Assembly (NCBI RefSeq): GCF_003574735.1
Contig: NZ_QORW01000009.1
Coordinates: 1-64,000, forward strand
DNA: 64,000 nucleotides
Origin: Dongia deserti
Lineage (GTDB): Bacteria; Pseudomonadota; Alphaproteobacteria; Dongiales; Dongiaceae
Reading direction: 5' to 3'
Part shown: in pieces, positions 99 through 41,384 of the stretch
Layout: the number at the start of each line of letters is the position of its first letter
Numbering within the stretch: position 1 is the first letter of the stretch
Made by a program: the position numbers and the translations under genes
Notes under the pieces: model-generated
The model's database searches: none
What the model saw: only the letters and a program-made list of their open reading frames with translations
Told to the model about the DNA's origin: nothing

Positions 99-174
99 AT
101 CACGAGTTTGCCTGCCACGGCTGAGTGCTGCCCATCGAAACTCGTGGATGGTCGGACCAAGTCGGACCATGACG
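99..174. repeat. Palindromic 37-bp element, inward-facing doublet (left arm truncated)
   Basis: The right arm (138-174) starts AAACTCGTGGATG and ends CATGACG, with a hairpin (one stem mismatch) and CAA loop between. The left arm (99-109) keeps only the inverted inner end, CACGAGTTT. The two inner ends face each other across about 28 bases. It belongs to the same family as the repeats at 1463-1565 and 35442-35818. Confidence 0.7.
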
Positions 175-1462: not shown

Positions 1463-1565
1463 CGTCATGGTCGGGCTTGGTTCGACCATCCACGACTTTC
1501 TATCTGCAAACGTGATGCCGCCCCGGACAAACTCGTGGATGCCCGTGCCAAGCACGGGCATGACG
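1463..1565. repeat. Palindromic 37-bp element, inward-facing doublet
   Basis: Two copies in inverted orientation: 1463-1499 (starts CGTCATGG, ends CACGACTTT) and 1529-1565 (starts AAACTCGTGG, ends CATGACG), 29 bases apart. The right copy is a perfect hairpin, ATGCCCGTGC - CAA - GCACGGGCAT. The left copy has seven outer pairs and two mismatches. The arrangement, two palindromes with their constant ends facing inward, matches the doublet around the GIY-YIG pseudogene at 35.4 kb. Confidence 0.8.
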
Positions 1566-27417: not shown

Positions 27418-27445
27418 TGGCGGGCGACGCACCGACCACTCTCCT

Positions 27446-27550
27446 GTCATCCCGGCCAAGCGAAGCGCGAGCCGGGATCCATTTTTCCACCGCACGTGCG
27501 ATTGCCCAATGGACCCCGGATCACGCCGCTGCGCGGCTGTCCGGGGTGAC
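27446..27550. repeat. About 105-bp palindromic element (GTCATCCCGG type), copy 1
   Basis: The outer ends are inverted repeats: GTCATCCCGG at 27446 and CCGGGGTGAC near 27550. The interior (27487-27505) contains CCACCGCACGTGCGATTGC, which recurs identically at 30856-30874. Three more elements with GTCAYCCCGG ends lie at 30823, 37463 and 41253. It sits between the ABC ATPase and permease genes. Confidence 0.7.
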
Positions 27551-30822: not shown

Positions 30823-30903
30823 CGTCATCCCGGGTTTGACCCGGAATCCATCCATCCACCGCACGTGCGATTGCGAATGGACCTCGGCTCAAGGCTGGGT
30901 GAT
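30823..30903. repeat. Palindromic element (GTCATCCCGG type), copy 2
   Basis: Starts GTCATCCCGGG and ends near GGCTGGGTGAT. It contains the identical 19-bp core CCACCGCACGTGCGATTGC (30856-30874) seen in copy 1. It fills the gap between the PAS gene and the convergent murJ gene. Confidence 0.65.
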
Positions 30904-35441: not shown

Positions 35442-35818
35442 CGTCATGCCAAGGCTTGGCCTTGGCATCCACGAGTTTGCCTAGGCCAGGATCAGGTCAT
35501 AGAGGTCATTCCACTCAGGATTTTCCTTAACAATCAGCCTGATTTTCCAGGCCCGCGGCCAGCCTTTGATGACCTTCTCGCGCCGGATGGCACCTTGGAT
35601 TGTCTCGTGGGGCTCGACAAAAACCAGCCGTTTCAATCCGTGGCGTTTCGTGAAGCCCGGTATCGCGCCCGTGCGATGCTGCCACACACGATGGGCAAGG
35701 CTGCTGGTGACGCCGACGTAAAGCGTCCCATTGGGCTTGTTGGTCGTGATGTAGACCCATCCACCCTATCCTACCTCTGTCAAACTCGTGGATGCCAAGG
35801 CCAAGCCTTGGCATGACG
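35442..35818. mobile_element. Candidate GIY-YIG element bounded by perfect inverted palindromic repeats
   Basis: The outer 38 bases are perfect inverted repeats: 35442-35479 (CGTCATGCCAAGG... ending in GAGTTTG) and 35781-35818 (CAAACTCGTGG... ending in CATGACG). Each arm is itself a hairpin, ATGCCAAGGC - CAA - GCCTTGGCAT. The 300-base interior is a GIY-YIG endonuclease reading frame. The inner ends face inward, as in the doublets at 99-174 and 1463-1565. AACT occurs next to both outer edges but with one extra base on the left, so a target duplication is not proven. Mobility is inference. Confidence 0.6.
35481..35765 (-). pseudogene. GIY-YIG endonuclease, start codon lost
   Basis: The frame encodes about 94 residues of a COG2827-type GIY-YIG (UvrC/URI-like) nuclease: GWVYITTNKPNGTLYVGVTS, then LAHRVWQHRTG, LVFVEPHET, AIRREKVIKGWPRAWKI and the end DLYDLILA. 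The GIY-YIG-equivalent VYI...LYVGV, the Arg and the Glu are present. The first usable start codon (GTG in HRVWQH) would remove the motif. Upstream in frame is TAG, in the context AGGATAGGGTGGATGG. Removing one A restores ATG GGT GGA TGG, the usual family start, after an AGGTAGG binding site. So one base insertion, or a sequencing error, breaks the gene. Confidence 0.7.
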
Positions 35819-41213: not shown

Positions 41214-41252
41214 TGTTTTGAATGAACACTCGGACTCGACCCACTCTCGCAC

Positions 41253-41343
41253 GTCACCCCGGCCTTGAGCCGGGGTCCATTCGTCAACTGCTCCAGCGCC
41301 GGCCCCATGGATCCCGGCTCGCGCTGCGCTTGGCCGGGATGAC
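41253..41343. repeat. Palindromic element (GTCATCCCGG type), copy 4
   Basis: Begins GTCACCCCGGCC (41253) and ends GGCCGGGATGAC (41343). The two arms, GTCACCCCGGCCTTGAGCCG and a partner near 41310, can each fold as well as pair with each other. It lies between the dapC-like gene and ftsK. Confidence 0.7.
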
Positions 41344-41384
41344 AGGTGGTGAGGCGGTGAGCGAGTGCGAACAACGGTGACTGC

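Follow-up and report, generated by a model that had tools for sequence, protein, structure and literature searches.

The locus at positions 35442–35818 of the window, by which we mean the whole stretch of 64,000 nucleotides of Dongia deserti DNA analyzed here, raises the question of what ties a small GIY-YIG nuclease to the palindromic repeats that enclose it. An earlier first-pass annotation had described a GIY-YIG frame standing alone between perfect 38-bp inverted repeats, each arm a ten-base-pair hairpin with a CAA loop, and this description is accurate. Both arms are 38 nt long and perfect inverted copies of each other, each with a 10-bp stem and a 3-nt TTG/CAA loop, and between them lies the GIY-YIG frame only (PF01541, 45.5 bits, E = 9.5e-12; Table 1). 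The two gene-free doublets that it listed, one of them truncated, are likewise present. Its statement that they carry the same palindrome holds for the scaffold (CGTCAT head, hairpin and ATCCACGAGTTT tail) but not for the stems, which are of the CCAAGGC type at the gene and of the GTCGGG, CCGTGC and GTCCGA types in the window doublets.

Table 1. Repeat and nuclease features of the window
Feature	Positions	Strand	Description
Left CGTC REP	35442..35479	+	Outward-facing CGTC head, stem of 10 bp, TTG loop, CCACGAGTTTG tail toward the gene
Right CGTC REP	35781..35818	-	Perfect inverted copy of 35442..35479
GIY-YIG nuclease frame	35481..35765	-	About 94 codons; canonical start codon absent
Gene-free REP doublet	1463..1565		103 bp, inward polarity, scaffold common to the gene arms, stems different
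Truncated doublet	99..174		Right arm complete; of the left arm only the tail remains
Inward pair, other CGTC REP type	41252..41344		Stems CACCCCGGCC and CATCCCGGCC
Single CGTC-type REP	27445..27478	+	Long loop
Single CGTC REP	30823..30847	+	Stem imperfect

The repeat is not confined to this locus. Its core, ACTCGTGGATG with at most one mismatch, occurs six times in the window, where 1.26 occurrences are expected, a count reached in none of 100 shuffles. A wider scaffold pattern has 41 matches in the genome, with none for a reversed-pattern control, and 107 in the sister genome G003. The palindrome is a CGTC-tagged REP and belongs to a repeat class already known, which was defined by Di Nocera et al. 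in 2013 (PMC3733652). Like the window repeats, the published ones have a CGTC or TGTC head, an A-T stem base, a CCA tail and inward dimers, and they show a bias to alphaproteobacteria, the host group here as well; dRS3 of Neisseria also belongs to the class (PMC3733652). Published stems are 8–9 bp and loops 4–5 nt long, whereas the window type has 10 bp and 3 nt; in this respect many REPs of the relatives (8–9 bp stem, 4–5 nt loop) also differ from those of the window. According to the 2013 survey, CGTC REPs "apparently lack a dedicated transposase": no Y1 transposase was found flanked by them, the possibility of their mobilization in trans by RAYT-like enzymes was left open, and what mobilizes them was the closing open question (PMC3733652). 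In contrast to that survey, which associated no enzyme gene with CGTC REPs, we find one GIY-YIG clade associated with them. The first-pass annotation, which knew of no description of such a system, recognized neither that the repeat class is known nor that a related nuclease family, Ssn, has reportedly been linked by biochemistry to such a repeat in Neisseria. In the literature searched, no paper joins GIY-YIG proteins with REPs or REPINs.

The window nuclease frame keeps catalytic-type residues; R27, E64 and N83 are invariant in the protein alignment. Its opening follows a TAG, and the first start is a GTG at 35687, beyond the GIY-YIG motif. The ortholog in the sister species (L006 on G003:C9, at 128557; also L095) has an intact ATG at the same place, the same neighbors and flanking REPs identical to those of the window gene. 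Because the start is missing here and the ATG is intact in the sister ortholog, the window copy is probably a recent pseudogene that lost its start codon and is decaying.

Are other GIY-YIG genes enclosed in the same way? Of the five PF01541 genes of the genome, one is UvrC, one is of a distant type without REPs, and three belong to one subfamily. The three are encoded on the contig of the window, the two besides the window gene being intact, and every one of them is enclosed by inward CGTC-type REPs whose stem and tail are particular to that gene. We extended the comparison to 80 non-UvrC GIY-YIG loci from 31 related genomes, using random 300-bp stretches from the same loci (n = 2980) as a control. 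Strict hairpins were present on both sides of 15 loci and on one side of another 15, compared with 0 and 59 random stretches, respectively. In the protein tree, every flanked gene falls inside one clade of 46 (support 97/94). By the strict test, 30 of the 46 clade members are flanked versus none of the 32 members of other GIY-YIG subfamilies from the same genomes (Fisher p = 3e-10, computed on strict hits only, with tree labels partly assigned by eye). The left–right inverted-repeat score is a poor test on its own because unrelated genomes have CGTC REPs in common, and the statistics were based on strict hairpin counts. A further 40 loci, mostly one per family, gave nine with REPs on both sides and eight on one side, two of the latter (L195 and L200) looking unrelated; the random values were 0 and 77 of 2557. 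The gene and the repeats are both intergenic and the repeats are common, but mere proximity of the two is extremely improbable given 30/46 against 0/32 and no both-sided hit among 2980 and 2557 random stretches, and it was rejected.

The gene-bearing unit is a clade gene with a CGTC REP on each side, both facing inward. The same arrangement is found in records of Neisseria, Aeromonas, Azospirillum, Sinorhizobium, Rhizobium, Shinella and Sphingobium, and, going by the contig labels, across phyla in MAG contigs of Parcubacteria and Bacteroidetes. A single-protein search of the genome contigs had returned only 10 loci, and NCBIfam holds no model for the clade proteins. Two of the records, L145 (Neisseria gonorrhoeae, about 2.2 Mb) and L155 (Aeromonas caviae, 4.9 Mb), are labeled as plasmids and are evidently chromosomes. 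In Planktothrix agardhii (L151), a clade homolog without CGTC hairpins has an MmeI-type restriction gene on one side and DISARM drmA on the other.

Next, we asked whether the clade gene and the repeats occur in the same genomes. In a sample of 144 genomes of the class, mostly one per family, the gene was called above 100 bits (the next score, 66, leaves a clear gap) and was present in 46; genomes with ten or more REPs by pattern were considered repeat-rich. Repeat-rich were 26 of the 46 genomes with the gene versus 6 of the 98 without it (odds ratio 20, p = 6e-11; p = 9e-5 in genomes of at least 3 Mb only), phylogeny being not fully corrected for either here or in the tail distances below. On the point raised by the first-pass annotation, namely whether the repeat is abundant where the gene is absent, the association is strong, but six genomes without the clade gene are repeat-rich. 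In G058, G095, G096 and G106 repeats are present and no clade GIY-YIG match appeared even at E = 0.01. In 15 genomes that carry the clade gene, the pattern finds few repeats. The REP-rich G106 has many REP arrays in the same direction.

The two partners also diversify together. Over 21 loci from one family of genomes, REP tail and protein distances are correlated (Mantel r = 0.41, p = 0.0002), and the tail difference is 0.71 between nucleases of one genome versus 0.33 between similar nucleases of different genomes. The REP tail type tracks the nuclease lineage, not the genome. A rival proposal is that RAYT or other Y1 tyrosine transposases move CGTC REPs in trans, with the GIY-YIG gene as a passenger. 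The hairpin-with-tetranucleotide design resembles that of GTAG REPs, and this is the route left open in 2013. However, a search of the window genome at E = 1e-5 gave no Y1 transposase match, repeat abundance across genomes shows no relation to the presence of Y1 genes (7/35 versus 25/109, p = 0.82), and no such gene was seen flanked by CGTC REPs in the survey (PMC3733652). We rejected this proposal on the first two counts and consider it very improbable.

Among 19 doublets from G003 and G000, 17 measure 101–104 bp and 11 are exactly 102 bp long; they have conserved ends, a variable middle and unique flanks. A pyrimidine occupies position -1 at all 38 ends, at which no direct target duplication was found. 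In 33 doublets of G003 the two arms are never identical (homotypic pairs 0 versus 5.3 expected). Instead, they form fixed combinations, 13 of CCCAAGGC with GGCAAGGC and 7 of GGTCGGAC with GGTCGTGC, and none of 10,000 permutations was equally concordant; it follows that the doublet is copied whole. The exact gene-flanking stem is rarely present in doublets of G000 and G003. In L222–L241 and the G003 doublets, the arms almost never have the same stem, though each stem is near-perfect, perhaps because long perfect inverted repeats are avoided.

Doublets are also present or absent at corresponding sites of sister species. The site of the doublet at G003:C9:14575 is a short intergenic gap in the window genome, and at the site of window position 41252 G003 has an extra CAAGGC-type doublet. 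Together with fixed length and unit copying, this bears out the first-pass suggestion that the doublets are REPIN-like. The empty and filled sites that it proposed to compare were thus found between sister species, but no nucleotide-exact excision or insertion was found between near-identical strains.

Gene units have changed as well. The unit at G000:C51:100427-100823 is inverted in place relative to G003:C9:75488-75852 of the sister species, and the counterpart in G003 of the unit at C51:123.1k is a gene-free doublet. In Azospirillum lipoferum 4B, the sufB–sufC gap is 617 bp long and filled by the gene and, on each side of it, a REP pair, whereas in three relatives of 94–95% it measures 87, 91 and 129 bp and has no REPs. 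Sinorhizobium meliloti Ak57 (L147:1668-1828) has a REP-bounded unit, adjoining a full one, in which just the final quarter of the gene remains; this internally deleted copy, left with the 3' end, resembles a MITE derivative. In G014, two gene units are 78% identical over 405 bp, the similarity ending at about the outer REP edges. Within-genome copies of gene units are at most 83% identical, with no recent multiplication, and multiple near-identical gene-bearing copies, as expected of an autonomous insertion sequence, were not found in the genomes compared. Since no within-genome gene pair exceeds 83%, gene units move rarely. RAYT genes likewise move rarely.

Could the REPs instead be immobile, their main role being to end transcripts or to form regulatory hairpins for a small gene? 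Stable hairpins do lie near both gene ends, and REPs in general are located mainly downstream of genes (PMC3733652). Yet such a role is at odds with gene-free doublets of the same polarity, with presence/absence and with in-place inversion, and the upstream hairpin would precede the gene. We regard it as very improbable.

In many respects the system resembles REPIN/RAYT (PMC3116915, PMC2817692). In both, inverted hairpins whose head tetranucleotide is unpaired flank the enzyme gene, doublets lacking the gene spread as units of fixed length and leave no target duplication, and the repeat type is specific to the enzyme and co-diversifies with it. The differences lie in the enzyme, an HUH Y1 tyrosine transposase there and a GIY-YIG protein (PF01541) here, and in the hairpin foot, GTAG there and CGTC or TGTC here. 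The clade has its catalytic fold in common with GIY-YIG homing endonucleases; unlike them, it is encoded outside introns, has a single small domain and interrupts no recognition site.

Ssn proteins of the GIY-YIG superfamily (Chenal et al., Nat Commun 2025) are reportedly site-specific single-stranded-DNA nucleases, and that of Neisseria is reported to cut ssDNA at a repeat. They are reportedly described as a transformation modulator and tool enzyme, not as a partner of mobile doublets. The gonococcal homolog, which we take to be Ssn, aligns inside the clade and sits in an array of dRS3-type repeats. It is therefore conceivable, though we think it rather unlikely, that clade nucleases recognize the repeats, cut repeat-bearing ssDNA and modulate transformation or recombination, while the repeats multiply otherwise. 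Both the tie of a small GIY-YIG protein to an abundant short repeat and the lack of recent multiplication of gene units agree with this. On the other hand, such a role alone leaves unexplained the inward-facing bracketing, the unit copying and the internally deleted REP-bounded gene copies.

Taken together, the partnership between nuclease and repeat is well supported, and we infer that the nuclease drives the copying. The locus is likely, if by no means certainly, part of a dispersed repeat system that has a small GIY-YIG nuclease, from a single clade, as its dedicated protein. The GIY-YIG analog of REPIN/RAYT proposed by the first-pass annotation is partly supported, by the flanking of the clade and the REPIN-like doublets; the part of the transposase may fall to the nuclease. 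In such a system, REPs would be recognized by the nuclease in their single-stranded hairpin form and nicked at the CGTC head or next to it, in the way that RAYT enzymes nick at GTAG. More speculatively, a doublet or gene unit may be nicked at its two ends while the DNA is single-stranded, during replication or as incoming ssDNA, and the unit so freed or exposed may be copied elsewhere by host repair or template switching. Rejoining would have to be the host's, because a GIY-YIG enzyme, unlike an HUH transposase, forms no covalent DNA intermediate. The gene unit would then be the autonomous form, moving rarely, and doublets, including internally deleted gene copies, the non-autonomous one. Ssn-type cutting of ssDNA would supply the enzymatic step, and it is equally the basis of the main rival reading.

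Of candidates for the missing CGTC-repeat enzyme, the clade nuclease is so far the strongest. It may be, at not quite even chances, that a GIY-YIG nuclease propagates the CGTC REPs, which are one of the two large superfamilies of REPs, and that this system evolved independently of REPIN/RAYT. The self-bracketing of the clade, its co-occurrence with the repeats and the co-diversification of tails make the question of CGTC REP mobilization directly testable, and they supply natural nuclease–target pairs for ssDNA tools. If true, a hydrolytic nuclease, not a transposase, would be running a system of mobile repeats, and a REP-plus-enzyme system would have arisen by convergent evolution with an unrelated enzyme.
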